Source of the DNA: an uncultured Flavobacteriaceae bacterium
GTDB taxonomy: Bacteria > Bacteroidota > Bacteroidia > Flavobacteriales > Flavobacteriaceae
Direction of reading: 5' to 3'
Assembly: GCA_947494715.1 (NCBI GenBank)
Contig: CANLWG010000002.1
Location: 310,001-374,000 of the forward strand
Length of the DNA stretch: 64,000 nucleotides
In this document: positions 4,667 to 64,000 of the stretch, piece by piece
Layout of the letters: the number at the start of each line of letters is the position of its first letter
Numbering within the stretch: position 1 is the stretch's first letter
Notes under the pieces: generated by a model
What the model was told of the DNA's origin: nothing
The model's input: only the letters and a program-made list of their open reading frames with translations
Databases searched by the model: none
Translations under genes and position numbers: made by a program

Positions 4667-4682
4667 ATGCAAACCTTTGCAT
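4667..4682 (+). promoter_or_regulatory. LacI-family operator upstream of the phosphoesterase-GH92-EEP operon
   Basis: The sequence ATGCAAACCTTTGCAT is a perfect inverted repeat of ATGCAAA around a CC centre. The same 16 bp occurs at 19900-19915 and 28636-28651. It is close to the Escherichia coli PurR operator pattern (ACGCAAACGTTTGCGT), which points to a LacI-family repressor. It ends 79 bp before the start codon at 4762, a spacing like that of the other two copies. Confidence 0.8.
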
Positions 4683-4761
4683 AAGATCGGCACTGCCATC
4701 GTTTCCATAACCCCTATTTTTATATTGAATTGATACGATTGAAAACTCATTTAAATAGGGC

Positions 4762-6714
4762 ATGAACTTCCTAAGAAACACAAAATATCTGCTCCCTTTT
4801 ATCGTCCTAACAATCGGGATTTCTTGTGCCCCAAAAAAAAGCTTACGTCTCCCAGAATTACAGATTGCCATAATTGCGGACGCGCATCTTCAGGATGTTT
4901 ATGGGGAACTTCAGGATAGCGAATATCGCGGTGTAAAAAATCCTAAAAATGGAGGTTACGCACTTATCAGGACCATGGGGAGTCAATTGAGGTCTACCCG
5001 AATTTTTAACGAAAATTACTTTGCGTTTTTGGCCGCACTTGATGATATAGCCAAAAGAAATGTGCGCTATGTATTGCTCCCAGGGGATTTCTCGGATGAC
5101 GGGCAGCCTATCCATCTGCGTGGACTAAAACGGATTTTAGAAGATTATTCCGAACGCCATGGGCTTTCATTCTATTTGATCCATGGCAACCATGATGTTG
5201 TACGGCCGTTTAACCGCAAAGATGGAAAAGTAGATTTCCTTGGGGAAGGTGGCAAGCGGCAACCCATCATGTCGCATTTGCAAATGTATGTAGCCGACAC
5301 TATCAAAGAACATCCGGTAATAGTTTCAAGGGACATTCAAAATTTGGGGTATTACGAAAGTACGAACCACATGGCCGATTTCGGATTTTTTCCCAAAGCG
5401 GATCATATCTATTGGGAATCCCCATTTTCTGATTATACCTACGATACCTACAATTTCGAGCAGGCCAAAGAACAAGCTTCATTAAAAAACAGAAGCCTTT
5501 TGCTCCCTCCAAATGATGTCCCTCTTCCGGACACCAGTTATCTGGTAGAACCCATTGAAGGGCTCTGGTTGCTTGCCCTTGACGCAAATACATATCTCAA
5601 AAAAGAGAGATTGGGTGAGGAAACAGATTCTAAGGATTATCCCAATACCGGAATTGGCCATGACAATCTTCTTGAAACTAAAAAATACCTCTTGGACTGG
5701 GTGGGAAAAGTGGTGAAAAGTTCGGAAGAACATGGGAAAACACTGATTGCCTTTAGCCATTATCCCATGGTGGATTTTACAAATGGCGCTACCCCTGAAA
5801 TTGATAATTTATTGGTCGGTAGCCAAATGCAATTGAGACGGGTTCCCAATAACAAAGTAGCCGAACTATTTGCCGATAAAGGCCTAAAGCTCCACTTTGG
5901 GGGCCATTTACATATAAACGATACAGGAATCACCACCACAGAAAAGGGAAATACCTTGGTGAATGTTCAAGTACCTTCCTTGGCAGCCTATAAGCCGGCC
6001 TACAAATTGCTTACCATAGGGGAAAAGGAGATTATGGAGGTGGAGACGATAACCTTGGATTCCGTTCCTAGGCTTGATGAATTTTTCAACCTATACGAGC
6101 AGGAGCACACATTTTTGAGAAGTATAAGCGACCAAAATACCTGGAACAAAGCGGTTTTAACTTCAAAAAACTATCATGAGTTTATGACATGGCATTTGAG
6201 GGAACTCGTGCGATTACGTTTCCTGAAATCGGAATGGCCATCTGAATTTGCCTCCTTTCTTTTACCTATTTCCGGTCAGGAATTGTTGGCGTTATCACAA
6301 GCGAACCCTTTGGAACTTCTTGAAGAATCGTTAAAGAAAATCAAGGGTAATGACAACCAAGCTTCAGATTATTGGATAAAAGCCCAAGAAAGTGCCCACA
6401 AATCAAATCTGAATTTTGATTGGTTCGGCGATTGGTCGGGATATGATTTGGTATTCGACCTGTACCGGCTTAGAAGTGCCGATGAATTGGCCTTCAGCGA
6501 TATTGGCCAAGAACGGCTGGACCAATACAGCCTCATCATCGAATCGTTCCTAAAACAAGAAAATCTAATTTCGGACAATGACCCGATGCGAAGTAACATG
6601 CTCGAGCTGATAAAAATGTTTCGAAAATTTATGAACGGTGAGCCCTCCGATCATTTTCAAATACAACTAAAAACCGGGAAAGTAATACCGTTGAACAATA
6701 AACGGACAGATTGA
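4762..6714 (+). CDS. Calcineurin-like metallophosphoesterase lipoprotein
   Basis: A 650-residue predicted lipoprotein (signal peptide ending IGISC, Cys22) that should act in the periplasm or on the cell surface. Metallophosphoesterase metal ligands are in order: DAH at 40-42, PGDFSDDG at 107-114, GNHD at 142-145, FSHYP at 331-335 and GGHLH at 380-384. The catalytic domain thus spans roughly 35-400, with a long insertion between GNHD and the second half; the C-terminal 200 residues have no domain I recognise. It is first in a three-gene unit with a GH92 mannosidase and an EEP phosphatase, behind a LacI-type operator. It probably removes phosphate from a mannose- or inositol-containing substrate; whether it is a mono- or diesterase cannot be told. 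Confidence 0.85.
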   Translation: MNFLRNTKYLLPFIVLTIGISCAPKKSLRLPELQIAIIADAHLQDVYGELQDSEYRGVKNPKNGGYALIRTMGSQLRSTRIFNENYFAFLAALDDIAKRNVRYVLLPGDFSDDGQPIHLRGLKRILEDYSERHGLSFYLIHGNHDVVRPFNRKDGKVDFLGEGGKRQPIMSHLQMYVADTIKEHPVIVSRDIQNLGYYESTNHMADFGFFPKADHIYWESPFSDYTYDTYNFEQAKEQASLKNRSLLLPPNDVPLPDTSYLVEPIEGLWLLALDANTYLKKERLGEETDSKDYPNTGIGHDNLLETKKYLLDWVGKVVKSSEEHGKTLIAFSHYPMVDFTNGATPEIDNLLVGSQMQLRRVPNNKVAELFADKGLKLHFGGHLHINDTGITTTEKGNTLVNVQVPSLAAYKPAYKLLTIGEKEIMEVETITLDSVPRLDEFFNLYEQEHTFLRSISDQNTWNKAVLTSKNYHEFMTWHLRELVRLRFLKSEWPSEFASFLLPISGQELLALSQANPLELLEESLKKIKGNDNQASDYWIKAQESAHKSNLNFDWFGDWSGYDLVFDLYRLRSADELAFSDIGQERLDQYSLIIESFLKQENLISDNDPMRSNMLELIKMFRKFMNGEPSDHFQIQLKTGKVIPLNNKRTD

Positions 6715-6731
6715 ACCCAAAAACCAATACC

Positions 6732-8996
6732 ATGAAAATAAACCAAAAGGCCATGTTAATTGCGATCCTACTTTTAGCCGCTTTACCATCATTGAAGGCA
6801 CAGGAAAAAATGGCTGTAGACTATGTGAACCCGCTTATAGGAACATCGGCCTTAGGTTTTAGCGAAGGTAAGGATGGTGGTGGGACCATGCCCTGTGTGG
6901 GGCCGCCCTTTGCCATGACCAATTTTGTGGCGCAGACGCGTGAAAACAAAATCAGTGAAATGCCCTATGTTTATGAAGATACGACCATTAAAGGATTTAT
7001 GGCTACCCACCAGCCGACAGTCTGGATGGGCGATTATGGCTATGTCAGCGTCATGCCTCAAATAGGGGAGTTAAAATTACTTCCCAACGATCGGGCATTA
7101 CCTTTTTCCCATAACAGCGAAATCTCGAAGCCCCATTACTATTCAGTTACCATGGAGGACGACCGGAAGGAAATAAAAGGGGAAATCGCTGCTGCTTCCC
7201 GTTGCGGCATGTTTCAGTTTACCTTTCCCGAATCCAAGGAATCACACCTCATCATTCAAGGCATCAATATCACCGAGAACAAGAAAGATTTTCAAGGTTA
7301 TCTAAAAATCGATGATAAAAAAGGGGAAATCACCGGGTATAACCCGGAAAGAATGTCCTCCCATTTAGGGCCTAAACTTAGTAACTTCAAAGGCTTTTTC
7401 ATAATACAGTTCGATAAACCATTCGAATCTTTTGGGACGTGGAATTCTTTTCGTACGGAACCTGATATCGTAAAATCGGGAACGGAACAATACGGCGCAC
7501 GAATGGGTGCATATATCAGTTTTAAAACAAAAAAAGATGAAAAAGTCAAAGTAAAGATTGCTACCTCTTTTATTAGTATTGAACAGGCTCGTAAAAATCT
7601 ATCTATCGAAATACCCCATTGGGACTTCGAAAATTTAGTAAATACCACCCGTACGATCTGGCAAGAAAATTTAAGCAGAATAGAAGTAAAGAGTAAATCG
7701 GAAGTACAGAAAAGTATCTTCTACACTGCCTTGTTCCACACTATGTTGTTTCCTCGTGAGTTTTCAGAGTATGGACGCTATTATAGTCCTTTTGACGATA
7801 AAATTCATGAAGGTGTATCTTATAACGATTATTCCCTGTGGGATACTTTTAGGGCGTTGCATCCATTGCTTCATTTTACACATCCCGAACGGGTAGATCC
7901 AATGGTACAATCCTTATTACAGATGTACAAAGAAGGTGGATGGCTACCAAAATGGCCAAACCCCACCTACACGAATATAATGATAGGTACACATGCAGAT
8001 GCTGTCATTGCGGATGCTTATGTAAAAGGGTTCAGGGATTATGACGTAGCCTTGGCCTACGAAGCTGTTCGCAAAGACGCCATGCAGCCACCCTTTCGCG
8101 ATACCGAGAAACATTGGGGCGATCGCGATGAAGGAGTTTTATATGAGGCTCGGGGAGGGCTCACCTATTATCATTCACTAGGCTATGTAGCGGCTGACAG
8201 AACTCGCGAATCCGTAACGCGTACCATAGAATTTGGCATCGATGATTTTTCCATTGCCCAAATGGCAAAAGATCTTGGAAAAACGGAAGATTACAATCGG
8301 TTGATGAGTTGGAGTAAAAACTATAAAAATCTGTACAATCCCAAAACTGGCTTTTTAAATGCCCGCTTATTCAACGGCGATTGGCACGGCAATTCGCAGG
8401 AAGGATTCACGGAAGGAGGGAAATGGACCTATCTTTTTGGTGCCATGCACGATATCCCGGGAATGATGGATTTATATGGAGGAAAAGCCAAATTTGCCCG
8501 AAAATTAAACGAAAATTTTGATGGTGGCCACTATCGGCACGATAATGAACCTGGGCACCATTACGCCTATTTGTTCAATTATGCCGGACAACCTTGGAAA
8601 ACCCAAGAACTGATTAGGAAGCATACTTCTGTGGAAAACTTTAGAAATCTACCCTTGGGTATCAATGGAAATGATGATTGCGGGCAAATGTCCGCTTGGT
8701 ATGTTTTTGGGGTAATGGGTTTTTATCCGGTAACTCCCGGGACGGAAGTTTTTGCCATAGGAGCCCCCCAATTTCCGGAACTTACCCTAAAACTATCAAA
8801 AGATGGTAAATCCAGATTGTTCAAGATCATTGCCAATAATCTATCCGAAGATAATATGTACATACAATCCGTGACCTTGGACGGAAATCGAATTAAAGAA
8901 CCGTTTATCACTTATACCCAGATAATGAATGGCAATAGATTGGTTTTTGAAATGGGGAAAAAACCTAATTTCAATGCGTTTAGTCACAAACCCTGA
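6732..8996 (+). CDS. GH92 family alpha-mannosidase, secreted, canonical catalytic acid
   Basis: A Ca2+-dependent inverting exo-alpha-mannosidase of 754 residues with a cleavable signal peptide ending LPSLKAQ. I chose the ATG at 6732, 17 bp after the upstream stop, because it gives a clean signal peptide; a TTG at 6711 would add seven residues. GH92 hallmarks: GGGTMPCVGPPFAMTNF near the N-terminus, YSLWDTFRALHPL near 370, NEPGHHYAYLFNYAGQP (general acid Glu606 by family analogy) and GNDDCGQMSAWYVF near 646, the region of the general base. It shares an operon with a phosphoesterase and an EEP protein. Linkage specificity (1,2, 1,3 or 1,4) cannot be read from sequence. Compare the second GH92 at 21171, where the acid is Gln. 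Confidence 0.93.
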   Translation: MKINQKAMLIAILLLAALPSLKAQEKMAVDYVNPLIGTSALGFSEGKDGGGTMPCVGPPFAMTNFVAQTRENKISEMPYVYEDTTIKGFMATHQPTVWMGDYGYVSVMPQIGELKLLPNDRALPFSHNSEISKPHYYSVTMEDDRKEIKGEIAAASRCGMFQFTFPESKESHLIIQGINITENKKDFQGYLKIDDKKGEITGYNPERMSSHLGPKLSNFKGFFIIQFDKPFESFGTWNSFRTEPDIVKSGTEQYGARMGAYISFKTKKDEKVKVKIATSFISIEQARKNLSIEIPHWDFENLVNTTRTIWQENLSRIEVKSKSEVQKSIFYTALFHTMLFPREFSEYGRYYSPFDDKIHEGVSYNDYSLWDTFRALHPLLHFTHPERVDPMVQSLLQMYKEGGWLPKWPNPTYTNIMIGTHADAVIADAYVKGFRDYDVALAYEAVRKDAMQPPFRDTEKHWGDRDEGVLYEARGGLTYYHSLGYVAADRTRESVTRTIEFGIDDFSIAQMAKDLGKTEDYNRLMSWSKNYKNLYNPKTGFLNARLFNGDWHGNSQEGFTEGGKWTYLFGAMHDIPGMMDLYGGKAKFARKLNENFDGGHYRHDNEPGHHYAYLFNYAGQPWKTQELIRKHTSVENFRNLPLGINGNDDCGQMSAWYVFGVMGFYPVTPGTEVFAIGAPQFPELTLKLSKDGKSRLFKIIANNLSEDNMYIQSVTLDGNRIKEPFITYTQIMNGNRLVFEMGKKPNFNAFSHKP

Positions 8997-9108: not shown

Positions 9109-9966
9109 ATGAAAAAAAAGATAGCAATAGTATTGGTTCAAGTATTGATTTTTTCGTCATTTTCATACGCGCAGAAGAATAGACCCATTAACACCATGTC
9201 CTTTAATATTCGATATGACAATCTAGAAGATGGCAAACAGAATTGGCACCATAGAAAAGAAAATGTCGTTCGGATGATTAATTTTTATGATCTGGATATC
9301 ATTGGAATGCAGGAGGTTTTGGTAAATCAACTCAACTATCTTAAGCAGCATTTAGAGCAATACAGAACAGTAGGTGTAGGCCGTGAGGATGGAAAGGAAA
9401 AGGGGGAGTTCTCCCCCATTTTTTATCGAAAGGATAGGTTTGAAGAGTTAAAAAATGGTACATTCTGGTTAAGTGAAACACCTCAAAAAGTGAGTAAAGG
9501 TTGGGATGCTTCCCTAGAAAGGATAGCAACTTGGGCAATAATAAAGGATAAGATCACTGGGGAAAAGTTTGTCATTATGAACACGCATTTTGATCATATC
9601 GGAAAGCAGGCCCGGATTGAAAGTGCTAAATTATTAAAGCAAAAATCTAAGGAACTTGCAAAGGATTTGCCTTTGATCCTTACAGGTGATTTTAATCTTG
9701 TTCCGGAATCCGAGGCCATAAAAACCTTGACGGAACAGGACGGGGAGAATACCCTGGTAAACTCAAGCACTGTTGCCAACGTAAGCTATGGGCCCGACTG
9801 GACGACCTGTGGTTTTGACAATAGACCGTTCCACAAACGAAAGGTAATTGACTATATTTTTGTAAAACAGTTTAAAAGGGTAATTAGATACGCCGTTTTT
9901 TCAGAAATGCTAAACGATATATTTTTATCGGATCATTGCCCGGTTTTTGCCCAAATTGAATTTTAA
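9109..9966 (+). CDS. Secreted endonuclease/exonuclease/phosphatase (EEP) family hydrolase
   Basis: A 285-residue protein with signal peptide (cleavage near SYAQ, residue 22). EEP fold motifs are complete: SFNIRYDN (31-38), GMQEV with metal ligand Glu69, NTHFDH (158-163), LTGDFN (191-196) and the terminal SDHCPV (274-279). The family includes inositol polyphosphate phosphatases, sphingomyelinase-like phospholipases and nucleases. Export, and sharing a unit with a phosphoesterase and an alpha-mannosidase under an operator also found before the inositol operon, suggest a phosphatase or phosphodiesterase acting on an inositol or glycolipid phosphate rather than a DNA repair enzyme. That is inference. 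Its 3' end converges on iolG. Confidence 0.85.
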   Translation: MKKKIAIVLVQVLIFSSFSYAQKNRPINTMSFNIRYDNLEDGKQNWHHRKENVVRMINFYDLDIIGMQEVLVNQLNYLKQHLEQYRTVGVGREDGKEKGEFSPIFYRKDRFEELKNGTFWLSETPQKVSKGWDASLERIATWAIIKDKITGEKFVIMNTHFDHIGKQARIESAKLLKQKSKELAKDLPLILTGDFNLVPESEAIKTLTEQDGENTLVNSSTVANVSYGPDWTTCGFDNRPFHKRKVIDYIFVKQFKRVIRYAVFSEMLNDIFLSDHCPVFAQIEF

Positions 9967-10023: not shown

Positions 10024-11031
10024 TTAACCAATCTCGGATATTTTTACCGGTCTGTTTTCCTGAATGGACTTAATAGCGGCAAGTCCTATTTTTAGAGATT
10101 GTAGCCCATCGTTTCCATCAACGGGCATCATAGTACCGTTTTCAAGCCCCTTAATGAAATCCCTCATTTCTGTTTTATAGGCCTCTTGGTAGCGTTCTAG
10201 GAAAAAATGTAAGGGTAAGGCCGCATGTATGCCTTGATTGTTGTACAATTTGTGTGAATCGTGGAAATTGTTGTTGGATTGTACCATCCCTTTTGAACCA
10301 AAGACTTCAACCCTCTGATCATAGCCATAAGAAGCTTCCCTACTATTATCTATGATGGCCATGGTGCCATCGGTATAGGTTAACGTAACGACTGCAGTAT
10401 CTATATCACCAGCGGCCCCAATGGCCGGGTCGATCAAAACCGCACCTTTGGCATACACTTCCTCTACTTCTTTATCTACAACGAAACGGGCCATATCAAA
10501 ATCATGAATGGTCATATCCAAAAATAGCCCCCCTGATTTTTCAATGTAGCTTACCGGAGGAGCACCGGGATCACGACTGGTAATCTTGACCAAATGAGGA
10601 ATCCCCACAGCTTTGTTTTTCACCAACTCCCGTACCTTTCGGAATTCCTTATCGAACCTTCTGTTAAAGCCCAACATCAACTTGACCTCTGCATCCTTAA
10701 CGGTCTCCAATACTTCCGAAACCCTTGCCAATGAAAGATCCAATGGTTTTTCGCAGAAAACATGTTTTCCAGCCTTTGCGGATAGCTCCACATAATCCGC
10801 ATGTGTATCGGTAGGGGAACAGATCAAAACGGCATCGATCTGGGTACTTCCCAACATTTCCTCAAAAGTGTCGGGCGTAAAGGGTACACCTTTATCCCTG
10901 GCATATTGCAAAGAGCCCTGATCAGGGTCTGTCGCCGCTACTATTTCTACGTCGGGCGTTTGAAGCAGATTGTCCAAATGGATTTTTCCGATTCTTCCCA
11001 ATCCGGCTATGGCCAATTTTAGTTTTGTCAT
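10024..11031 (-). CDS. iolG: Inositol 2-dehydrogenase
   Basis: An NAD(P)-dependent GFO/IDH/MocA-family enzyme of 335 residues that oxidises myo-inositol to 2-keto-myo-inositol (scyllo-inosose), the first catabolic step. The Rossmann motif GLGRIGKIH is at about residues 10-18, the family's CEKPLDL is near 93, and a conserved TIHDFDMARF segment lies near 173. It is the last gene of the iol operon, 14 bp after iolE. GFO/IDH/MocA enzymes vary in sugar specificity, but the surrounding iolE, A, D, C, B and J genes make the inositol assignment strong. Confidence 0.9.
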   Translation of the reverse strand: MTKLKLAIAGLGRIGKIHLDNLLQTPDVEIVAATDPDQGSLQYARDKGVPFTPDTFEEMLGSTQIDAVLICSPTDTHADYVELSAKAGKHVFCEKPLDLSLARVSEVLETVKDAEVKLMLGFNRRFDKEFRKVRELVKNKAVGIPHLVKITSRDPGAPPVSYIEKSGGLFLDMTIHDFDMARFVVDKEVEEVYAKGAVLIDPAIGAAGDIDTAVVTLTYTDGTMAIIDNSREASYGYDQRVEVFGSKGMVQSNNNFHDSHKLYNNQGIHAALPLHFFLERYQEAYKTEMRDFIKGLENGTMMPVDGNDGLQSLKIGLAAIKSIQENRPVKISEIG

Positions 11032-11045
11032 TTGTATTGAATTAA

Positions 11046-11951
11046 TTATAGCCCTAATGTTCTTATGTAATCCCTATTGGATTGCGCGCATTTTTTGGGT
11101 TCTCCCATGCCTGGAAGTATATCCTGTTCAACAACGATCCAATCCATGTAGCCCTTGTCGTTCAAAAGTTTTACTATTGAATTAAAATCCACTGTACCCT
11201 TCCCTAGTTCACAGAATACCCCTTTTTTTAACGCATCAAAATAATCTCCATTTTCCTCGCGTGATAGTCGGGCCGCTTTGGGGTCATAGTCCTTAAAGTG
11301 AACATGCCATATTCTGTCCGAATACTTTACTATGGCATCTGTGGGATTACCTCCGCCAAAGGCGTAATGTCCCATATCCAAACAGAGTCCCAATAATTCA
11401 GGATTGGTCAAGGCCATAAGGGTATCTATCTCTTGTGGGGTCTCTACATACCCGGCACAATGATGATGGAAAACGGTGCGTAGTCCATATTGATCCTTTA
11501 CGGCTTTGGCCACTTTTTCGGCACCCGCGGCATATACCTTCCATTGTATTTCGGAAAGTCCCATTTCAGGGGTTATTCTGCCCGCGTATTGCGTGCGATC
11601 CGGGACGGACCCATTGTCATCGGCCAAAACAATAAATGCATTTTCATACCCTGCTCTATACATCAGTTGGGCAACTTTTAATGCGGTATCTACTCCCGCT
11701 TCATGGGTGCTGCTATCGGCCAAGGCCACTGGAACAAAGGCTCCCAGCAACTGCAAGCCCCTCTTTTCGATTTCCTTGCGTAAAAGGTCTGGGTCTGTAG
11801 GCATGTATCCCCAATCGCCAAGTTCCGTACCGATATAGCCCGTTTCCTTTATTTCGTCCAAAACCTGTTCAAACCCGATTTCTTCGGATTTTTCCTCTAG
11901 ATCGAATTCCAGGGCGCCCCATGAGCAAGGTGCGTTTGCTATTTTGATCAT
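11046..11951 (-). CDS. iolE: Inosose dehydratase-like TIM-barrel protein
   Basis: A 301-residue xylose-isomerase-like TIM barrel of the sugar isomerase/epimerase superfamily. By context it dehydrates 2-keto-myo-inositol to 3D-(3,5/4)-trihydroxycyclohexane-1,2-dione, the substrate of IolD. Visible features: N-terminal NAPCSWGALEF, GYIGTELGDWGYMPTDP, the metal-site segments FHHHCAGYVETP and CLDMGHYAFGGGNPTDAI, and HVHFKDYD. It sits 9 bp after iolA and 14 bp before iolG. The alternatives IolH or IolI belong to the same fold, but an iolE activity is needed and no other candidate is present. Confidence 0.85.
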   Translation of the reverse strand: MIKIANAPCSWGALEFDLEEKSEEIGFEQVLDEIKETGYIGTELGDWGYMPTDPDLLRKEIEKRGLQLLGAFVPVALADSSTHEAGVDTALKVAQLMYRAGYENAFIVLADDNGSVPDRTQYAGRITPEMGLSEIQWKVYAAGAEKVAKAVKDQYGLRTVFHHHCAGYVETPQEIDTLMALTNPELLGLCLDMGHYAFGGGNPTDAIVKYSDRIWHVHFKDYDPKAARLSREENGDYFDALKKGVFCELGKGTVDFNSIVKLLNDKGYMDWIVVEQDILPGMGEPKKCAQSNRDYIRTLGL

Positions 11952-11960
11952 CCTATTTTT

Positions 11961-13436: not shown

Positions 13437-13477
13437 TTTTTAGAATGCTTAGTACTTATTAATTGAAAAATTGTTTT

Positions 13478-15076: not shown

Positions 15077-15091
15077 TAGGTCGGTGGTGGT

Positions 15092-16951: not shown

Positions 16952-16963
16952 TTTGATCAAAAT

Positions 16964-17977: not shown

Positions 17978-17982
17978 ATTCC

Positions 17983-18855: not shown

Positions 18856-18863
18856 ACTATTAT

Positions 18864-19854: not shown

Positions 19855-19915
19855 AACAATAAAAAAATGATGTTGAAAAGCATAATAGACCAAAAGACTA
19901 TGCAAAGGTTTGCAT
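19855..19915 (-). promoter_or_regulatory. iol operon promoter/operator block
   Basis: The operator ATGCAAACCTTTGCAT (read on the minus strand) occupies 19900-19915, between the end of the regulator gene and the start of iolJ. The 61 bp from the operator downstream align without gaps to 28591-28651 upstream of susC; I count about 50 identities by eye. The TTTG inside the right arm may be a Bacteroidota -33 element, so repressor binding would block polymerase; that part is inference. Confidence 0.75.
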
Positions 19916-28651: not shown

Positions 28652-28785
28652 TGATTTACATGGTCTTAAGCCTTATTTAAACTTTAGGGAACATCATTTT
28701 CAAATAACTATTTAGAGCTTTTTAAAACTGGTAAAAAAGTAAAAAGGAAGGTAGAATTTCTAAAAAAATGGGAACCAAGATATGG

Positions 28786-54317: not shown

Positions 54318-54462
54318 AATTGTTGAGTGTTGCAAGTTGATTTCTATTTTGGTCATAGTTTATCTTGTGGTTTTCCCTTTTCCCATCGCTGCTGTTCTTA
54401 TATAACTCTCCAAGGAAAAGACGACTAAAGGTTTTATCGATTAGTCTTGGGTCCTATTCGGA

Positions 54463-56084: not shown

Positions 56085-57362
56085 TTACTTGGACTCATAA
56101 GGTCCAAACTTGGCCAATACTTCTCTCTTTTCAGATCCATCGTCCAATATAAAGATATCGTATTTTGCTCCTTCTTTATGTACACGGACAACGATATGGC
56201 CTTGCTGGCTTTTATACGAATCCAATCTACCTCCAATTACATCCTTATTGGCCTGTAGCATTACTGTAGAAAATATGTCCCTTTCTCCAGGATATAAAGC
56301 TGTTGAGGTAATTCTTCGTAGTACTTCTTCTCCGGGATGATCAGACGACCAGTTCTGTTGGATCCAGACCCGAGGCCTAACAGATCGAACATAAAAAGCG
56401 TTCTGAGAATCACGATTCCCATGATGATTCAAGGTCGCTACGTCCACAGCACCTACGACTGGGGCGATATGGGATTCCACGGCGTTAAAATCGGTTCCCC
56501 CGAGTGCATCAATGCCACTAATATCACCTCCTGTAAAATAGTCAAAATCACCGTAGGTGATTTTAATACAGGTACTTAAAGGATTTTCGCCGGGATAGTT
56601 TCCTTTGGAAAATATAGAATATGAATCTGAGTTTATGCCAGTCCATATATTGCCGTTTACCGCAATAGCGCGAACAGCGAAATTGGGGAAGTCATTGGGA
56701 GATTTTTTCAGTTTGATTTGATTGCGTTCCCCTGCTTCCAATGTTTTATGCATCAGCCCATTGGTTTTGGATTGATGATCAATGAATTTCCAATAATTTT
56801 TAAGAGTCGCTACCATACCGTAGGCATCGTCTTTATTTACTCCCCTTTGAACTTCGGTGTCCTTCAAATCTATGGGATAATCACTTCCCCTGTCCAAAAG
56901 TGTTTTTATGGGCAAAAGATTTCCCACTTCGGTAATCCCGGTAAGAAAATAATCGCCCTGTCCTGCCATTTTTCTGTTCGCATCCATTTCGCCAAAATGA
57001 TCATCATGGTAGTGGGTTATTAGGGCGTAGTCCAGCTGCTTTGTCCTATTCACCGGAAAAAACTGATGGATGTAATCCACAATCCATCCTGGAGCGGATT
57101 TGGAGTTATTGGGTTTTTGAACGGCATTCCTGGCGGAAAGTGTTCTTGTATGCGTTTCGGACATATCCCCGGCATCCACCAAAAGCGTAGTGGCATCCGG
57201 AAAAATAAAAAAAGCGGCATCCCCGCGACCCGTATTGATATGATGGATTTCCAAAATACCCTCTTCCCAGGGCGGCAATTGTTCTTTTACTTCTTGAGAA
57301 ACCATTGGGGCGGTCACCAATAGGCAACCAATTGCTATTGCCTGGAGGTATGCTAAAATCAT
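56085..57362 (-). CDS. Secreted metallo-beta-lactamase-fold hydrolase, ComEC-C-terminus-like
   Basis: A 425-residue MBL-fold protein with an N-terminal signal sequence (about 1-22). Motifs: TTLLVDAGDMSETH (58-71), ITHYHDDHFGEM (115-126, the HxHxDH site), YFTGGDISG near 283 and VATLNHHGNRDSQN near 310. The last two resemble the C-terminal hydrolase domain of competence protein ComEC. Here it is free-standing and exported, within an operon of secreted phosphatases, so a phosphodiesterase role is plausible. MBL-fold substrates are hard to predict; I do not assign one. It ends 29 bp before the purple-acid-phosphatase-like gene. Confidence 0.83.
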   Translation of the reverse strand: MILAYLQAIAIGCLLVTAPMVSQEVKEQLPPWEEGILEIHHINTGRGDAAFFIFPDATTLLVDAGDMSETHTRTLSARNAVQKPNNSKSAPGWIVDYIHQFFPVNRTKQLDYALITHYHDDHFGEMDANRKMAGQGDYFLTGITEVGNLLPIKTLLDRGSDYPIDLKDTEVQRGVNKDDAYGMVATLKNYWKFIDHQSKTNGLMHKTLEAGERNQIKLKKSPNDFPNFAVRAIAVNGNIWTGINSDSYSIFSKGNYPGENPLSTCIKITYGDFDYFTGGDISGIDALGGTDFNAVESHIAPVVGAVDVATLNHHGNRDSQNAFYVRSVRPRVWIQQNWSSDHPGEEVLRRITSTALYPGERDIFSTVMLQANKDVIGGRLDSYKSQQGHIVVRVHKEGAKYDIFILDDGSEKREVLAKFGPYESK

Positions 57363-57369
57363 TCTATTC

Positions 57370-59016
57370 TTATTTTAACGTGGAGGTAGGAATTATTTGT
57401 TTTGGTATATCGGGGCTTTGATAAAATACATCTAACCAACTGTCGCCACCGCCATTGAACCAAATCACCTCCAAAGGATAGACTCCTTGTTTTAAAGTAA
57501 TACTCCCGTCATTTTCCTTTACCCCGTGATCGCCATCATTGTCAACAACTTCTTCACCATTGATCCACAGCTTGCTACCATCATCCGAACGGGTATAAAA
57601 CGTGTATTTATCGTCCTTATGAATAACAATTTGGGTCTTGAATCGAATTGCCGTACTGCTTTTCACCTCCTCTTTGATCTCATCAGAGGTAATTTCAAAA
57701 CTAGTTCCCCTATGGTCCGGTATTTTGTTTCTCAAAGAAGGGATGCTTGTAAGCCCATCCAAGTAAAAAACTTCGTAGGATACCGGTGCTATAAGGCTTT
57801 TTTCCTTTATCCTAAAAAATGCTTCGCTGACCGTGCTAGATATTCTTCCATTCTTAAACATAGCACTTTTTACGACTGTATTCCAGGTGACTTTGAACGG
57901 CGCCGTATATAGATTTGAATCCTTATCGGGCATTTTACCGTCTAGGGTATAATACACTTCCCCTTCAGAATTTGGGTTTTGAATGGTAACTTCTTTCCCA
58001 TCATCAAACAAGCCTCCTGCTTTTTTACTTAATACCGCCGCTGGTAGAATTACAGGTTCTTCCAATCGTATTGTTAAGGGGTAATCATCGATTTCGTCAA
58101 AACCTTCAAAAGCATTTTTGACCGATTTACCTATCCATGCCCTAGGTGTTTTCAATCCCAGGACAAAGGCCACGGTAGCGGCATTATCATATTGATAAAT
58201 AGGGTACTTAAGTTTGTGGTTCTTCTTGATCGATTTTCCCCAAAGCAAAAACGGAATCTCGATTTCTTGAAGTGATTCGCCACCGTGCCCCTTGCCTAGA
58301 CCCCCATGATCTGCACTGATGATTACGACCGTTTCATCTTCAATGCCAGCATCTTTGATGGCTTTCATCACCACACCTAAAAGTTCATCCGATTTTTCAA
58401 CAGAAGTATAGTATTCCGGTGATCCATGACCGAATTCGTGTCCGGCATGGTCTACGTGATCAAAATGGATAAATGTAAAATTCGGTTTCTTGCTTTTTAT
58501 ATAGTTCCCGGCCAGTTCAGCGGTTTCCTCTTCCGTTTTAGGATTTATATCATAATCTACAGCATCTTTTTCAAAAAGCCTTCCAAATCCTGTCCAGTGA
58601 TATATGGCTCCAACCTCTGCATTTTCAATTTGGTTATCCACCAAGTGAAAAATCGTCGGAAATAGAAAGTCTTCACTTTGGACGACGGCAGGCAACACAA
58701 AATTGTCTTTTTCCCAAGCATTGGAGGTAATCCCATGCTGTTCCGGGCCTGACCCCATAATCATGGATGCCCAGTTGGTGCTCGAACTTGTAGGTAATAC
58801 GGATCGGGCATGTAGCGAATAAGACCCTTCCTCCATTATTCTATCAAAATTTGGTGTTGCCCCGTGTTCCAAACCGTCCGGACTCAATCCGTCAAATCCG
58901 ATGACAACCACATGTTTTGCTTTAGGTAATCGTTCAGCAGTCTCATTAGTACAAGACCACGGGGATAAAATCCCCATGGTCAGTACTATGGCCAATAGTT
59001 TAAATGTTTTTTTCAT
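57370..59016 (-). CDS. Alkaline-phosphatase-superfamily lipoprotein with chitobiase-like and PA14 domains
   Basis: A 548-residue lipoprotein (signal ending PWSC, Cys22) from the ATG at 59016, just past the susD stop; an in-frame ATG at 59106 would overlap susD. The catalytic domain (about 33-320) has VIGFDGLSPDGLE (Asp42), nucleophile Thr80 in SSSTNWASMIMGSG, FDHVDHAGHEFGHGS (185-199) and ISADHGGLGKGHGG (233-246). Next is a chitobiase C-terminal-like domain (YYTLDGKMPDKDSNLYTAPF, about 335-402) and a PA14-like domain (FYTRSDDGSKLWINGEEVVD, about 410-548), both glycan-binding in other proteins. It suggests a surface phosphodiesterase that docks on a glycan. Confidence 0.88.
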   Translation of the reverse strand: MKKTFKLLAIVLTMGILSPWSCTNETAERLPKAKHVVVIGFDGLSPDGLEHGATPNFDRIMEEGSYSLHARSVLPTSSSTNWASMIMGSGPEQHGITSNAWEKDNFVLPAVVQSEDFLFPTIFHLVDNQIENAEVGAIYHWTGFGRLFEKDAVDYDINPKTEEETAELAGNYIKSKKPNFTFIHFDHVDHAGHEFGHGSPEYYTSVEKSDELLGVVMKAIKDAGIEDETVVIISADHGGLGKGHGGESLQEIEIPFLLWGKSIKKNHKLKYPIYQYDNAATVAFVLGLKTPRAWIGKSVKNAFEGFDEIDDYPLTIRLEEPVILPAAVLSKKAGGLFDDGKEVTIQNPNSEGEVYYTLDGKMPDKDSNLYTAPFKVTWNTVVKSAMFKNGRISSTVSEAFFRIKEKSLIAPVSYEVFYLDGLTSIPSLRNKIPDHRGTSFEITSDEIKEEVKSSTAIRFKTQIVIHKDDKYTFYTRSDDGSKLWINGEEVVDNDGDHGVKENDGSITLKQGVYPLEVIWFNGGGDSWLDVFYQSPDIPKQIIPTSTLK

Positions 59017-59026
59017 TCTCTTGTTT

Positions 59027-60580
59027 TTAATCCACATCCCACCAAAGTTTTGTATTGATGTTGTCACCGCCCATACGCTGTACGGCGGCATTGTAATTTT
59101 CCTCATTAGTGGCCTTTACCTGGTTGGGATACTGAAAACGAACGGGGACCTGACCCCCGTTTACTGCATCAGGGCCCGGTATTACCTCCGGCATATTTGT
59201 GCGCCTCCAATCGGACCAGCCTTCAAAACCTGTATAGAAAAGGGAAATCCATTTTTGAAGGGCTATCTTACCCAATTTTTCAGCAGATGAACCTGTTAAG
59301 GCGACTTGGACCTGAGCAAGATACGCATCCAAATCGGTATTCTGCATGGCCGCCGCTATTTCGGTCCATCCTCCTGCAGCTACCCTTTCCGTGTAGTATT
59401 CAAATGAAGCCCGTATGCCGTTTTCGTAGAATTCGGCCGTTTCACCAATGGTTATCCAACCTTTTTCCCTAGCCTCGGCCAAAATAAATTGAAGTTCGGA
59501 ATAACTCATAATAATGGTCTGTGATGCCGTGGGAGAAGCTTCTTCCGGATTACAGGCCCGGCATGCCAAAAGTATGCCCAATCTTGAGATAAAGTTGGAG
59601 CCTGATTCATCAGGGTTTCCCGTTGGACTATAACCTAAGGCAGCCTCATCGTCCAAACCGTTCGGCATACCCACGTAATCATCAAAATTATCGGAATAAA
59701 TTCCTTTTCCCGAAGCCGATGTAGGCTGTGCGAACACAACTAACCTCGTATCGTTGAGTTCTTTCAGCCTCGTTTCCAAAGTGAGACTCAAACGCACTTC
59801 GTCAAAACTACCGGAACGGGTATCGTATTTGGATTGAGGATTATCCGAATTCCATTGCACCAATGCCATATCGGCATTGCTTTCAAAAATAGGAAAGGTA
59901 GACAAATTGCTGGCGATTTGTGTCATACCAGCAAGCGCTTTGGCATTATCTACATCGCTAATGCGCATCAACAACCGCAAGCGTAACGAATTGGCAAATT
60001 TCCGCCATTTTAGAACGTCCCCGCCGTAAAAGATATCCCCTGAAATATTGTCCGTACCCGTGAGCACCGTATTCGCGGTTTCCAAGTCTGCCAATATACC
60101 GTCATAAATAGCTTGTTGGGCATCAAATACCGGTCTTACGTTACCATCACTTATACCCTTTGTAGCTTCAGAATAGGGTACATCCCCATAGGCCTCGGTC
60201 AGATAGGAATATATCCAGGATTTCATTACCAATGCCACTCCATAATAATTTTGTGCATCCGGGTTTTCCCGAGTGTCTCGGATAATATTCTCAACATCCC
60301 TAAGGGAGTCGTAGGCATCCCCATAGGGGTCGTTGGAAGGAGACCAGTTGTAGATGTCGCCACTGGTAAATTGCAGGCGTGCGGCATATTGTACGACCGT
60401 AAAACCTTCTTCCCAACCCTGGTCGCCCCAATTATCAGCCATTTCTAGCTGTATCCCTGGCAATAAAAGCTCAGGTTGAGCGGAAGCCGGAAAATTGGGG
60501 TTTATATTAATGGTCTCAAAGTCTTCGGTACAACCGAACACCAAGAACGATAGTAAGATTATAGCTATTCTATTTTTCAT
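59027..60580 (-). CDS. SusD-like outer-membrane lipoprotein
   Basis: A 517-residue lipoprotein (signal ending LVFGC, Cys17) from the ATG at 60580. An upstream ATG at 60608-60610 overlaps the susC stop as TAATG and would add ten residues that spoil the signal peptide; coupling through it is possible. Features: FETININPNFPASAQPELLL, SWIYSYLTEAYGDVPYSEAT, LKWRKFANSLRLRLLMRISD and the C-terminal TKLWWDVD. It is paralogous to the SusD-like protein at 42088-43617. It should bind the ligand for the SusC upstream. Confidence 0.93.
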   Translation of the reverse strand: MKNRIAIILLSFLVFGCTEDFETININPNFPASAQPELLLPGIQLEMADNWGDQGWEEGFTVVQYAARLQFTSGDIYNWSPSNDPYGDAYDSLRDVENIIRDTRENPDAQNYYGVALVMKSWIYSYLTEAYGDVPYSEATKGISDGNVRPVFDAQQAIYDGILADLETANTVLTGTDNISGDIFYGGDVLKWRKFANSLRLRLLMRISDVDNAKALAGMTQIASNLSTFPIFESNADMALVQWNSDNPQSKYDTRSGSFDEVRLSLTLETRLKELNDTRLVVFAQPTSASGKGIYSDNFDDYVGMPNGLDDEAALGYSPTGNPDESGSNFISRLGILLACRACNPEEASPTASQTIIMSYSELQFILAEAREKGWITIGETAEFYENGIRASFEYYTERVAAGGWTEIAAAMQNTDLDAYLAQVQVALTGSSAEKLGKIALQKWISLFYTGFEGWSDWRRTNMPEVIPGPDAVNGGQVPVRFQYPNQVKATNEENYNAAVQRMGGDNINTKLWWDVD

Positions 60581-60609
60581 GATTCTGTATTTTATGATTC
60601 GCGCGTCCA

Positions 60610-63600
60610 TTAAAAATCGACTTGCAGGTTGAAAGTAAAGAGACGTGTGCTGGGATAGGACATGTTTTCGATACCTGGCTGTAGGGTACCTCCGGATACG
60701 CCCACTACCTCGGGATCAAAATGTGGATTGTCCGTCCAGAGCAATAAGTTTCTCCCTGTTATCGAAAATCTGGCATTGGCAATTGGCAACCTATCGGTAA
60801 TTTTTTTAGGGAACGTATAGCCTAAGGTGACTTCCCTTAATTTTGTATAGGAGGCATCATACTTTGCCGCTTCCACATTATCACGTTCATAAAAGCGGTT
60901 ATTATACGTTCTTGCATCCACATTGGTAGTATTGGGCTCATATACACCTGGAGAGACCTCCACTACGCCCTCGGCCACAATACCTGTTTCCCTACCTTCC
61001 AAGGTTTCCACTAACTGACCGGATGTACTACCAATCGTCTTGGTACGGGACACTACAATACCGCCTTGTCTTGTGTCGATTAAAAATCCTAAGTCGACAT
61101 TCTTATATTTGAAGGTGTTTTGGAGTCCTAGGGTAAAATCCGGGGCATAATCACCTTGATATACCAACCCGTCCGTCCGAATAGGAATCCCTTGTTCATT
61201 GATTATTTTTTGACCAAAGAACTCGCTGTTCGGGTCTTCCACCCGCTGAAACCCCCTACCATAAATGGCGCTGATGGAGCCCCCTTCACGAGCCTGTATA
61301 AAAGCCCCGTTTCTATTGGTCAAGCTAAAGTTTACGCCACCCAGGTCTTTGACTTCGCTTCGGTTGGCAGAAAAATTAAAGGTAGTGTTCCACCTAAAGT
61401 TATCGGTGAGTACCGGTACAAAATTGGCAATGACCTCAAAACCATAGTTTCTAACTTCCCCGGCATTGATCAACTGACTGAAATATCCGCTAGCTATATC
61501 GGTATCGATATTGATGATCTGGTTTCGCGTGCTACTGTCGTAGTACGTAAGATCAAAATTCATACGGCTCTTAAAGAACCGAAGATCAAGTCCGAATTCG
61601 TACGAAGATGTTATTTCTGGTTTCAATTCGGCATTGGGTATCAAGTCCGATTCCGTTAAAACTGGAGTCGAACCGTCAAAAGGTCTTTCGTTTCTATAAA
61701 AACTTCGCAAGCGATAGGGATCGGTGTCATTCCCAACTTCGGCATAGGCGGCCCTCAGCTTCGCAAAGGATACCCATTCCGGCATAGTGAACATATCACT
61801 GGCAATAGCACTTAAAGTCGCCGAAGGATAGAAATAGGAGTTGTTATCTTCCGGCAAGGTACTGGACCAGTCGTTTCTACCGGTAAGGTCAAGAAAAAGT
61901 AAGTCATCATAGGCAAAACGGGCAAAACCGTAGAGGCTGTTGATTCTTTTTTCAAAATTATCCGTATTGACCTGCACGGCCTGTCTTGAATTGTTAAAGG
62001 AATATACTCCTGGGTTGATCAGTTGCGGGGCAACGCTCTTGGTAAAATCCTGTTTTTGCCGCAATTGGTTGCCGCCCACAGAGATATTGACATTCCATTT
62101 TTTATTGAAGGTCTTATCATAGCTCAACAAAAAATCCGTATTACTTTCCTCAAAGAAGATATTGTCTTCTTGATATGTGCCGAATGGGAAGCGTTGTGTA
62201 CTGAATGCCCTTTTCCTAGGCCTAAAATCCCTATAAAAATCACGACCGCTGCGGAGTAGTAGTTTCCAGTTTTCATTAATACCGTAATTGATACTTATGT
62301 TTCCGAATATCCTGTCCTTATTCTGTGCATTGGTATTCTCAAACATGGTGAAAAAAGGATTGTCATGGTAATTATAATTATAGTTGAACTGTTGTGTTCC
62401 TTCCAATCCAGGTTGCCAATAATCCCTCAGGTTATTGGTATTCAACTGCCGGCCATACCAAATAAAAAGATACATGATGCTTTCCGTACCGTAACTTACG
62501 GACGGTCTATTGCCGCTATCCGTTTTCACATAATTGACGTTGGCATTCACCGTCACCTTATCGGTAAGATTAAGGCTACCGCTAAGGCTAAAAGTATTTC
62601 TTTCAAGGTCGGTGTTGGGCAAAGTGCCTTCTTGGTCCAAATTTTGGAAGGAAAACCTCATATTTCCCATATCGCCCGACTTTGATATCGCGATACTGTT
62701 CGTTAGGGTAATACCTGTATTAAAAAAATCTCTGGTATTATCTGGTTGGGACACCCAGGGAGTAGCAGTTATCGGGGCATCACTTACAAAGATATCTCCC
62801 CCGCGAGTTCCATCCGACCGTGGGGAATCGAACTGTGGGATCAATAGACCGGTATCAAGTCTTGGGCCCCAACTCTCATCTACACCATCCGCTATCCCGG
62901 AACCACTTCCATCAACAAATTCAAACTGTTGGTTATTTCCTTGGCCATATTCATTCTGCCAATCGGGTAAGAGTAGAATGTTCTCAATGGTTACGCCTGT
63001 ATTGAAGGATACGCCTAGCCTACCACTTTGCGATTGGCCTTTCTTTGTAGTAATGATGATAGCCCCATTCGCTGCGCGGGCTCCGTACAAGGCCGCGGCG
63101 GCAGGGCCTTTCAAAACGTTGATGCTCTCTATATCCTGTGGATTTATCTCAGCGGCCCCATTACCGTAATCCACATCCTGTGTTCCCGACCCATTTGAAC
63201 CGACTATTTCATTGCTTATCGGAGTGCCATCTACTATAAACAGAGGAGAGTTACCGTTAATGTTCAAGGAAGCATCTCCCCGAATGGTAACCCTTGCCGA
63301 TCCACCAAGACCCGAAGGACTGTTTGTGATTTGTACACCGGCAACCTTTCCCGAAATGCCATTTAGAAGATTGGGCTCCCTTGCCGAAGTAACTTCATCG
63401 GAATCAAGCTCCTGTGAGGCATACCCTAAGGACTTTTTCTCCCTTTTTATTCCTAAGGCCGTAACCACAACCTCCGAAAGACCTGTTGCACTTTCCTTCA
63501 ATGTAATGGTCAAGTTGGTCTGTCCGTTTAACGCAATTTCCTTTGTTGTAAAACCAATATAGGAAATCACCAATGTTGCATTGGGATCTGCTACTTCCAG

Positions 63601-64000
63601 CGTAAAATTACCATCAAAATCAGACTGTGTTCCATTGGCAGTCCCTTTTTCCAATAGATTGGCTCCCGGTAACGGTTGGCCATCCTTATCTACAATAGTA
63701 CCGGTAATCTCCAATTGTTGATTTACAATCGGAACAATTGTCTCTTCAAATACTTCTTTAGAAGGAAGTTCTGTTCTAGGCTTTAGTACAATTTGTTTTT
63801 CCAATACCTCGAACATAATATCGGTATTTGAAAACAGCTTTTCCAAAATGGAGGAAACACGTTCTTTGTTAGCATTTACGGAGACTATTTTTTGATAATC
63901 TACCTCTTTGTCATTGTACATGAATTTGAATTCTGTAAGCGTTTCTATTTTGTTCAGAACATTTTCGAGACGTACATTCTCCAGATTCAATGTAATCTTG
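60610..64000 (-). CDS. SusC/RagA-family TonB-dependent transporter with STN domain, 5' end cut by window
   Basis: About 1129 codons of an outer-membrane transporter; the start lies beyond the right edge, and the reading frame is open to the last base. Visible order: STN domain (NLENVRLENVLNKIETLTEF and on, first 75 residues), a carboxypeptidase-regulatory-like domain (ITGTIVDKDGQPLPGANLLE), plug (VVVTALGIKREKKSLGYASQ; IVDGTPISNEIVG; ALYGARAANGAIIITTKKG) and a barrel ending in LFTFNLQVDF. The STN domain predicts a FecR/ECF pair just outside the window. It heads a same-strand series of secreted phosphatases and amine catabolic genes. Confidence 0.94.
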   Translation of the reverse strand, partial: KITLNLENVRLENVLNKIETLTEFKFMYNDKEVDYQKIVSVNANKERVSSILEKLFSNTDIMFEVLEKQIVLKPRTELPSKEVFEETIVPIVNQQLEITGTIVDKDGQPLPGANLLEKGTANGTQSDFDGNFTLEVADPNATLVISYIGFTTKEIALNGQTNLTITLKESATGLSEVVVTALGIKREKKSLGYASQELDSDEVTSAREPNLLNGISGKVAGVQITNSPSGLGGSARVTIRGDASLNINGNSPLFIVDGTPISNEIVGSNGSGTQDVDYGNGAAEINPQDIESINVLKGPAAAALYGARAANGAIIITTKKGQSQSGRLGVSFNTGVTIENILLLPDWQNEYGQGNNQQFEFVDGSGSGIADGVDESWGPRLDTGLLIPQFDSPRSDGTRGGDIFVSDAPITATPWVSQPDNTRDFFNTGITLTNSIAISKSGDMGNMRFSFQNLDQEGTLPNTDLERNTFSLSGSLNLTDKVTVNANVNYVKTDSGNRPSVSYGTESIMYLFIWYGRQLNTNNLRDYWQPGLEGTQQFNYNYNYHDNPFFTMFENTNAQNKDRIFGNISINYGINENWKLLLRSGRDFYRDFRPRKRAFSTQRFPFGTYQEDNIFFEESNTDFLLSYDKTFNKKWNVNISVGGNQLRQKQDFTKSVAPQLINPGVYSFNNSRQAVQVNTDNFEKRINSLYGFARFAYDDLLFLDLTGRNDWSSTLPEDNNSYFYPSATLSAIASDMFTMPEWVSFAKLRAAYAEVGNDTDPYRLRSFYRNERPFDGSTPVLTESDLIPNAELKPEITSSYEFGLDLRFFKSRMNFDLTYYDSSTRNQIINIDTDIASGYFSQLINAGEVRNYGFEVIANFVPVLTDNFRWNTTFNFSANRSEVKDLGGVNFSLTNRNGAFIQAREGGSISAIYGRGFQRVEDPNSEFFGQKIINEQGIPIRTDGLVYQGDYAPDFTLGLQNTFKYKNVDLGFLIDTRQGGIVVSRTKTIGSTSGQLVETLEGRETGIVAEGVVEVSPGVYEPNTTNVDARTYNNRFYERDNVEAAKYDASYTKLREVTLGYTFPKKITDRLPIANARFSITGRNLLLWTDNPHFDPEVVGVSGGTLQPGIENMSYPSTRLFTFNLQVDF

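Follow-up and report, generated by a model that had tools for sequence, protein, structure and literature searches.

We analysed a stretch of 64,000 nucleotides (the window; G000:C2:310001–374000) in the 5.97-Mb genome of an uncultured marine member of the family Flavobacteriaceae, a genus-mate of Ulvibacterium marinum. The window brings together genes for the use of mannose, myo-inositol, ethanolamine and 2-aminoethylphosphonate (AEP), three SusCD pairs and a series of phosphoesterases. In our best explanation, to which we give a probability of about one half, these genes form two adjoining scavenging units for mannosyl-phosphoinositide glycolipids bearing ethanolamine phosphate (EtN-P) and/or AEP. 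This explanation builds on what was observed of the locus: its anatomy, its operator sites, the insertion of one unit beside the other and the recurrence of the combination in relatives.

The original prediction had read the window as a single locus for degrading glycosylphosphatidylinositol (GPI)-like or mannosyl-inositol phospholipid head groups. Its gene list (GH92, phosphoesterases, iol, phn, ethanolamine and SusCD genes) was borne out by the Pfam and NCBIfam scans of 40 window proteins from which gene classes were assigned, and the same scans returned its three SusCD pairs. The modules do adjoin; they form a regulon and an inserted island, not one unit.

An operator palindrome shared by several operons

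A palindromic 16-mer, ATGCAAAGGTTTGCAT, occurs in exactly three exact copies in the window. The first (4667–4682) lies 80 bp before MPE1, which heads MPE1-GH92a-EEP; the second (19900–19915) stands before the iol operon and beside the LacI gene, and the third (28636–28651) before SusC1-SusD1-GH92b. The palindrome's first base, 4667, is also where the original prediction had started its locus. At up to three mismatches, seven matches were found in the window against 1.01 expected, a number reached by none of 100 shuffles; the seven are the three sites counted on each strand and one match at 38999 with three mismatches. Loosening the centre and allowing no more than a single mismatch gave three sites in the window (0.04 expected).

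The sites are conserved. In the two congeners compared, U. marinum (G149) and G150, the operator core precedes MPE1, iolJ, SusC1 and a gene for a GDPD-phosphatase fusion. G018, G006, G151 and three Arenibacter genomes carry it before several unit-1 genes or, at SusC1, before the sigma factor that precedes this gene, and a one-base variant precedes iolJ in G006, G151, G020 and G161. Over all other fetched genome stretches (1.72 Mb, some overlapping) we counted 38 sites, against an expectation of about 0.02 if bases were random and equally frequent. The U. marinum island and the stretches of G080, G011, G099, G152 and G155 gave no match even when two mismatches were allowed. The same operator at the member operons, conserved in relatives, is what a LacI-controlled inositol regulon would present. 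Because three exact palindromes precede the MPE-GH92-EEP, iol and SusCD-GH92 operons, positions 4667–28651 look like one regulon, and the position and conservation of the sites point to LacI as the protein that binds them.

In two relatives the operator reaches beyond inositol and mannose. In the metagenome-assembled genome (MAG) G151, an exact copy precedes a run of genes on one strand, with gaps of −64 to 127 bp: GH92a, two PbfA genes, the MBL hydrolase, the purple-acid-phosphatase-like enzyme (PAP), the ethanolamine permease, the glutamine-synthetase-like ligase (GS), aldehyde dehydrogenase (ALDH), iron alcohol dehydrogenase (FeADH) and glutamine amidotransferase (GATase). The one-base variant that stands before iolJ of G151 also precedes its FecR-SusC2-SusD2-LamG-NPP genes, beside phn. 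One operator type is thereby found before operons of every kind except phnAYW. In G018, the operator precedes an EEP-like/GH92a pair in the phn locus, with iol on another contig; the EEP-like protein is 50% identical to a G161 protein in which the EEP domain was scanned. These operators in G151 and G018 are our strongest evidence, and suggest joint use of the functions for mannose, inositol, ethanolamine and phosphonate.

An island inserted beside the inositol genes

Fewer than 600 bp separate SusC1 from the GDPD-phosphatase gene in U. marinum and G150, where the two adjoin in divergent orientation and have an operator apiece. The window genome matches these congeners on the left up to 28769 and again on the right from 68471, with 39.7 kb in between. 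This AEP/ethanolamine island (28770–64000 in the window, continuing to about 68470) faces an empty site in both congeners. Most of it (35.8 kb, 32258–68072) shares 95.2% identity with U. marinum contig C10, on which the order is phnW-phnY-phnA, sigma-FecR-SusC2-SusD2-LamG, ethanolamine genes, phosphoesterases and SusD3-SusC3. Identity to U. marinum is lower in the unit-1 flank (89.5–92.6%) and in the GDPD gene (85%). The island is apparently a unit that moved, with junctions read from the assembly alone, where misassembly is possible. Since the island of U. marinum lies on another contig and both congeners are unbroken at the site, the adjacency of iol, phn and ethanolamine genes in the window genome appears to be recent. 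One ancient locus was rejected for the window species, in which the island is inserted relative to both congeners.

The 3′ end of phn reads phnW-MFS-DAO-HTH in the window (28770–32250) and phnW-HTH-MFS in U. marinum (G149:C10:139022-142001), with identities of 56% for HTH, 81% for MFS and 90% for phnW. Because this end differs while the rest of the block is 94–99% alike at the protein level, a recombination point probably lies near phnW.

Linkage of the modules in related genomes

We searched for iolD in 21 of the 30 Bacteroidota-type PhnA loci (leaving out L056–L062, L064 and L066); another comparison covered 16 of the 30 and three further genomes. Among 149 genomes of the family, PhnA exceeded its cut-off in four, iolD was found in ten and both in three; the hypergeometric probability is 0.0009, and 0.0096 when the window's own genome is excluded; family-wide probabilities include that genome unless stated. 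Fifteen of the 21 phnA-bearing genomes searched have iolD. In ten of these 15, nine Arenibacter genomes and G151, the two genes share a contig at 18–68 kb (36–68 kb in nine of 11 Arenibacter genomes, 18 kb in G151), where contigs of equal length were taken to be the same.

The ethanolamine genes show a closer association. The permease and GS adjoin the iol operon in 10 of the 11 Arenibacter genomes with iolD, and in eight of the 11 iol is followed directly by sigma-FecR-SusC3-SusD3-permease-GS-ALDH; the exceptions are G159, in which the SusCD part differs, G170, with the permease directly after iolG, and G156, whose contig ends at SusC3. Every module of G151 lies within 61 kb (C32:108–169 kb). 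Counted by lineage, iolD and phnA are no more than 70 kb apart in three of six (Ulvibacterium, Arenibacter and G151, as against G161, G162 and G163), for which we estimate a rough chance of 0.0003; without the window's lineage the figures are two of five and 0.006.

Because the ethanolamine genes follow iol in Arenibacter and G151 holds all modules, the linkage in the window genome is probably not an accident. Three lineages (two named genera and one MAG) have arrived at the combination in different orders, and relatives that join the same genes in differing ways suggest a shared food source. The original prediction had named scattered blocks in relatives as the outcome that would count against it. 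Such scattering is rejected for Arenibacter and G151, where linkage recurs, but iol and phn lie on different contigs in U. marinum, G018, G006, G161 and two Arenibacter genomes.

Proposed substrate and alternative explanations

Judged by gene content, the likely target is mannosylated phosphoinositide glycolipids with EtN-P and/or AEP. We infer from gene families and operators how LacI binding, transport, enzyme specificities and substrate could fit together. Unit 1 (4667–28651 and the GDPD-phosphatase gene) would be a LacI-controlled regulon for mannosylated phosphoinositides: the head-group glycan would enter through SusCD1, its mannose would be trimmed by the GH92 enzymes, phosphate and the lipid-side phosphodiester would be removed by MPE1, EEP and the GDPD-phosphatase, and the freed myo-inositol would be catabolized by the iol operon. 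Unit 2 (28770 to about 68470) would be a movable island, in which NPP, MBL, PAP and the alkaline-phosphatase-superfamily enzyme AP2, with two SusCD pairs, would free and take up EtN-P and AEP groups. Ethanolamine would then be consumed by gamma-glutamylation and AEP by PhnWYA, probably also by PbfA. We propose that the units are repeatedly joined because their substrates share prey molecules made of mannose, inositol, EtN-P and sometimes AEP, such as protist or other eukaryotic glycoinositolphospholipids (GIPLs) and GPI-type glycolipids.

According to an excerpt of one study, GIPLs of Trypanosoma cruzi and T. theileri contain inositol, mannose, other hexoses, glucosamine (GlcN), EtN-P and 2-AEP, and some carry one EtN-P and one 2-AEP (PMC7618162). 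The GIPL class would fit all modules. The head-group reading first proposed is thus partly supported, and a strict GPI as substrate is unproven. The GlcN-inositol bond of GPI has no known enzyme here, because GH89 (PF05089, the one family searched for) had no match in G000 at E ≤ 1e-10, in agreement with the original prediction, which had found no glucosaminidase; four of the 12 genomes searched have a GH89. We know of no other enzyme for this bond, and a glucosamine-releasing route was rejected on the missing GH89 match. Mannosyl-inositol phosphoceramides or phosphatidylinositol mannosides (PIM) need no GlcN-inositol step, but leave AEP unexplained.

In the iol locus of G006 (Wocania), a DUF5009-like membrane protein (L155:13793-14935; 23.2 bits, Pfam cut-off 25) is encoded between two GH92 genes. 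It presumably resembles enzymes that acetylate terminal alpha-glucosamine. This makes it a lead for the GlcN step, a gap that it nevertheless does not fill: related proteins of the other 11 genomes searched are encoded elsewhere.

A stronger form of the two-unit explanation, held only tentatively, is a dedicated utilisation system for GIPL/GPI-type glycolipids with EtN-P and AEP, in which an inositol-sensing regulon commands further modules in some lineages and which was assembled repeatedly from mobile modules. Several observations weigh against joint use of the two units in either form. phnA and iolD lie on different contigs in five of the 15 genomes with both (two Arenibacter, G161, G162 and G163); iol and phn are likewise apart in U. 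marinum, on large contigs, and in G018 and G006, whose phn contig measures just 34 kb, making a contig break possible. Other gene clusters separate phn from iol in Arenibacter, and the 70-kb linkage threshold was chosen after seeing the data. Modules also occur alone: the ethanolamine unit in G080, and an iol block without phn or ethanolamine genes in stretches of 13–20 kb from G020, G099 and G112. No operator copy was found within the window's own island, at the far edge of which the GDPD gene's own operator sits. Within 10-kb flanks, 28 of the 30 Bacteroidota-type phn loci have no operator, and among 80 PhnA loci (1.39 Mb, flanks up to 10 kb) an exact copy occurs in just two, G151 and G018; co-regulation with inositol is seen in these two lineages only. 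Four Arenibacter sites, exact or with one mismatch, adjoin genes outside the modules. Finally, three SusCD pairs may mean three substrates.

Some of these points would suit mixed scavenging, a serious alternative though less probable than our best explanation. Here separate lipids or glycans of the same prey, dead or living, would supply inositol (together with mannosyl-inositol), ethanolamine and AEP; examples are phosphatidylinositol, PIM and glycosyl inositol phosphoceramides, phosphatidylethanolamine and phosphonolipids. The island would then be a mere collection of head-group functions. The three SusCD pairs have separate regulators, modules stand alone elsewhere (the G080 unit; iol blocks with no phn in the stretches covered), and phn with a SusC nearby and no iolD occurs in Snuella, Kriegella, Membranihabitans, Splendidivirga and one Flaviramulus. 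The exported-type enzymes match NPP and, weakly, pneumococcal phosphorylcholine esterase (Pce), types that act on phosphodiester head groups. Against separate sources, mannosidase, PbfA, phosphoesterases and ethanolamine genes of G151 form one apparent operon behind an inositol-type operator, and GH92 in the phn locus of G018 has such an operator too; both suggest that mannose, inositol and the head groups occur together.

It is improbable that GH92 and unit 2 serve AEP- or phosphoethanolamine-decorated glycoproteins (invertebrate or protist N-glycans) with the inositol locus a mere neighbour. Zwitterionic N-glycans are reported in excerpts of two papers (PMC4891362, PMC6935376), and GH92a with its EEP-like partner lies away from iol in G018; however, an inositol operator precedes that pair, the Arenibacter ethanolamine genes come directly after iol, and GH92 is the only glycoside hydrolase family in the window scans. 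Equally improbable is that unit 1 feeds on phosphomannan or PIM (yeast mannan, actinobacterial PIM) and that unit 2 is unrelated and landed by chance: a 'mannosyl-6-phosphatase' structure is among the near matches of EEP, mannan loci often have GH92 as far as excerpts tell, and the insertion is recent, but the 40 window proteins gave no endo-alpha-mannanase Pfam match (GH76/GH99, E ≤ 1e-5, in a search confined to the window), and chance landing leaves Arenibacter, G151 and the operator before the G151 ethanolamine operon unexplained.

If the two-unit explanation is right, surface glycolipids of protists and other eukaryotes would be a nutrient class that bacteria eat whole, obtaining carbon, nitrogen and phosphorus together. 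Bound AEP, as opposed to the free form, would gain a SusCD route, the operons named above would respond to inositol glycolipids through a single LacI protein, and the locus would be a source of enzymes that trim GPI/GIPL head groups.

Genes of unit 1

The first operon, on the plus strand, encodes the calcineurin-like phosphoesterase MPE1 (4762–6714; PF00149), which has a lipoprotein-type N-terminus and a poorly predicted structure (pLDDT 57.7), the predicted alpha-mannosidase GH92a (6711–8996; PF07971/PF17678) and the phosphatase EEP (9109–9966), assigned by Pfam and a structure–sequence match. EEP has close matches in 3g6s, 3mpr and 4c1r. Given its resemblance to 4c1r, which is named mannosyl-6-phosphatase, it may be a sugar phosphatase. 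Here as elsewhere, export was judged from N-termini by eye, not by a signal-peptide program.

The complete IolG, E, D, B, C, J and A set makes up an iol operon on the minus strand (10024–19829). It comprises iolG (10024–11031; TIGR04380), an iolE-like gene (11046–11951; TIGR04379), the methylmalonate-semialdehyde dehydrogenase gene iolA (11961–13436; TIGR01722), a sodium:solute symporter (SSF) with a putative role in inositol uptake (13478–15076; NF007790), iolD (15092–16960; TIGR04377), iolC (16964–17977; TIGR04382), iolB (17983–18855; TIGR04378) and a class II aldolase (18864–19829; PF01116, TIGR00167) whose family suggests the iolJ role. IolG, IolB, IolC and IolD exceed their curated NCBIfam cut-offs, as do PhnW and PhnA of unit 2; IolE is a best family match below its cut-off (210.8, cut-off 290).

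Also on the minus strand are the LacI-family regulator (19920–20975; PF00356), the predicted alpha-mannosidase GH92b (21171–23510; Pfam), with a lipoprotein-type N-terminus, SusD1 (23796–25553; PF07980) and SusC1 (25573–28551; Pfam). In pairwise alignments examined by eye, both GH92 proteins retain the catalytic-acid Glu, and the idea that either is a GH92 without the usual acid residue was rejected. The His-Glu pair described for BT3990 (excerpt of PMC5930347) seems, read by eye, to be missing in GH92a and to be His-Asp in GH92b.

The GDPD-phosphatase gene, at window number 68494, combines a short GDPD_2 match with a C-terminal alkaline phosphatase. Outside unit 1, a lactate permease and an FAD/4Fe-4S oxidoreductase (2–4204) flank it in all three genomes of the genus that were compared.

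Genes of unit 2

The phosphonate genes, on the minus strand, begin with an HTH-cupin regulator that is PuuR-like below cut-off (28786–29343; Pfam, NCBIfam), an FAD oxidoreductase with a putative PbfB/C/D-like role (29583–30818; PF01266) and an MFS transporter of the GlpT/PgtP family with a putative AepP role (30890–32167; NCBIfam). They continue with phnW (32215–33330; TIGR03301), phnY (33352–34779; TIGR03250) and the phosphonoacetate hydrolase gene phnA (34806–36017; TIGR02335). PhnW, PhnY and PhnA together constitute a PhnWYA pathway, with PhnY 1% below its cut-off (629, cut-off 635.65). To the right of the window, a PbfA-type protein scores 700 bits with NF049939 (cut-off 525) and slightly more, 713, with the generic aminotransferase model NF004755. 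According to an excerpt of PMC8316502, strains including Kriegella aquimaris have AepP next to PhnWAY, to PhnWX or to putative catabolic genes. The K. aquimaris phn locus encodes an MFS protein with 81% identity to that of the window.

In 15 of the 30 Bacteroidota-type loci, a protein similar to one of the window's SusC proteins (E ≤ 1e-12) is encoded within 10 kb of phnA, a count in which several loci are cut by contig ends and which unrelated TonB receptors would escape. Six Arenibacter phn clusters (L037, L039, L040, L042, L045, L046) stand beside a DctM-type TRAP gene, scanned in L037 and assigned in the other five by clustering, and a conserved block, not SusCD. Two Chitinophaga-labelled MAGs (L056, L057) have open reading frames (ORFs) of 2022–2030 aa only a few genes away from their phnA and phnY. 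On a contig labelled Candidatus Thioglobus (L065), PhnA is 61% identical to the Bacteroidota type, possibly through transfer or mis-binning.

Further right, the plus strand carries an ECF sigma factor with a FecR anti-sigma factor (36321–38389; Pfam), SusC2 (38479–42069; Pfam), SusD2 (42088–43617; PF12771) and a lipoprotein-type protein with Big_5 and laminin-G domains (43650–45206; Pfam). All remaining genes are on the minus strand. A D-2-hydroxyacid dehydrogenase (45647–46645; Pfam) is followed by the class I GATase (46782–47591; Pfam, NCBIfam), a putative gamma-glutamyl hydrolase, FeADH (47588–48769; Pfam), ALDH (48817–50199; Pfam), GS (50202–51557; Pfam, NCBIfam), a putative gamma-glutamylethanolamide synthetase, and the ethanolamine permease (51679–53160), whose best family match, like that of PhnY, falls below the cut-off (TIGR00908 349, cut-off 381.75). 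By analogy with described clusters, we infer that this set is a gamma-glutamylation route. GS has a counterpart of at least 83% identity in two of the 149 family genomes, the window's and G080, and five more have one at 44–49%.

Then come four enzymes: AP2 (53223–54356; Pfam), PAP, a calcineurin-like phosphoesterase (54463–56055; Pfam), the MBL hydrolase (56085–57362; phmmer, fold search), all three of exported type by their N-termini, and NPP, a phosphodiesterase, likewise of the alkaline-phosphatase superfamily, with a PA14 domain and a lipoprotein-type N-terminus (57370–59106; Pfam). At E ≤ 1e-10 the NCBIfam scan gave no match for AP2, PAP, MBL, MPE1 or EEP, and MBL had none in the Pfam scan. 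MBL matches Pce weakly in phmmer (E 2e-4); in a Foldseek search with its model, Pce ranks 2–4 (E 1e-10 to 2e-9) and a ComEC domain (9ic4) ranks first. SusD3 (59027–60610; PF12771) and SusC3 (60610–63999; Pfam), whose start lies outside the window at C2:374080, close the window. Beyond SusC3 the block extends through FecR, sigma, the PbfA-type lyase and the GDPD-phosphatase fusion. Farther right, at about 381–394 kb of G000:C2 (L126), are four tandem ORFs of 1055–1060 aa, in a stretch that at the DNA level cross-matches copies in U. marinum with some 74–78% identity.

NPP, MBL, PAP and AP2 travel with phosphonate and ethanolamine genes across relatives. Four genomes of four other genera (G001, G011, G108, G135) have SusC3-SusD3-NPP-MBL-PbfA-PAP-AP2, with a transporter-like gene, an FAD oxidoreductase and a PhnX-like hydrolase ahead on the same strand and an HTH-cupin gene between. 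The families were named in G011 (TIGR03364 419 bits, cut-off 285.1; TIGR03351 241, cut-off 218.9; PbfA NF049939 714, cut-off 525), and the other three genomes were matched to it by clustering; the G011 transporter-like protein had no NCBIfam match at 1e-8. These loci appear to be a second SusCD-linked C–P route with the same exported-type enzymes. G018 has SusC3-SusD3-NPP-MBL-PAP, the EEP-like/GH92a pair and SusCD2 beside phnAYW, and G080 solely SusC3-SusD3-AP2-permease-GS-ALDH-FeADH-GATase. Because G080 has the ethanolamine part alone and other genera the AEP part, unit 2 appears to consist of two joinable parts. In a comparison of 12 of the 30 Bacteroidota-type PhnA loci and seven further genomes, the matched NPP stretch contains one in-frame stop in G018 (G018:C1:10421-11386, covering the N-terminal part only) and in G108 (G108:C1:2049218-2050879).

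Comparison with known systems

The original prediction knew of no described locus with this combination; among the matches listed from the open-access literature, no title or abstract start described the combination of modules or a SusCD-linked phosphonate locus.

With three SusCD pairs and two GH92 genes, the window qualifies as a Bacteroidota polysaccharide utilization locus (PUL). Yeast alpha-mannan PULs of Bacteroidota combine GH92 with a mannose phosphatase, and the window has SusCD pairs, GH92, a 4c1r-type phosphatase and sigma/anti-sigma regulators in common with them. Unlike them, it shows no endo-mannanase and adds inositol, ethanolamine and phosphonate pathways and many phosphoesterases. 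With known iol operons the window shares iolG, E, D, B and C, the aldolase, iolA and the symporter, whereas its LacI-type regulator and operator-like sites common to SusCD, GH92 and phosphoesterase operons set it apart.

The PhnWYA/Pbf/AepP route, as described in excerpts of three papers (PMC8316502, PMC10590968, PMC8154272), has phnW, phnY, phnA, a GlpT-family MFS and an FAD oxidoreductase in common with the island, and the PbfA-type lyase next to the window is a further likeness. In those excerpts AEP is taken up as a free compound and the terms SusC and TonB are absent; here, by contrast, SusCD pairs and exported-type phosphoesterases adjoin. The MBL enzyme resembles Pce/CbpE in its modelled MBL fold and retained HxHxDH metal-ligand motif, but TM-scores on the query are just 0.46–0.48 at 12–14% identity.

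The ethanolamine genes are closest in content to the GlnA4 cluster of Streptomyces, with which, according to an excerpt of PMC6529630, they share permease, GS-like ligase, dehydrogenase, aldehyde dehydrogenase and amidotransferase. An iron alcohol dehydrogenase stands here where Streptomyces has a short-chain enzyme and, unlike the GlnA4 cluster, the ethanolamine genes of the window are coupled to SusCD pairs and phosphoesterases.

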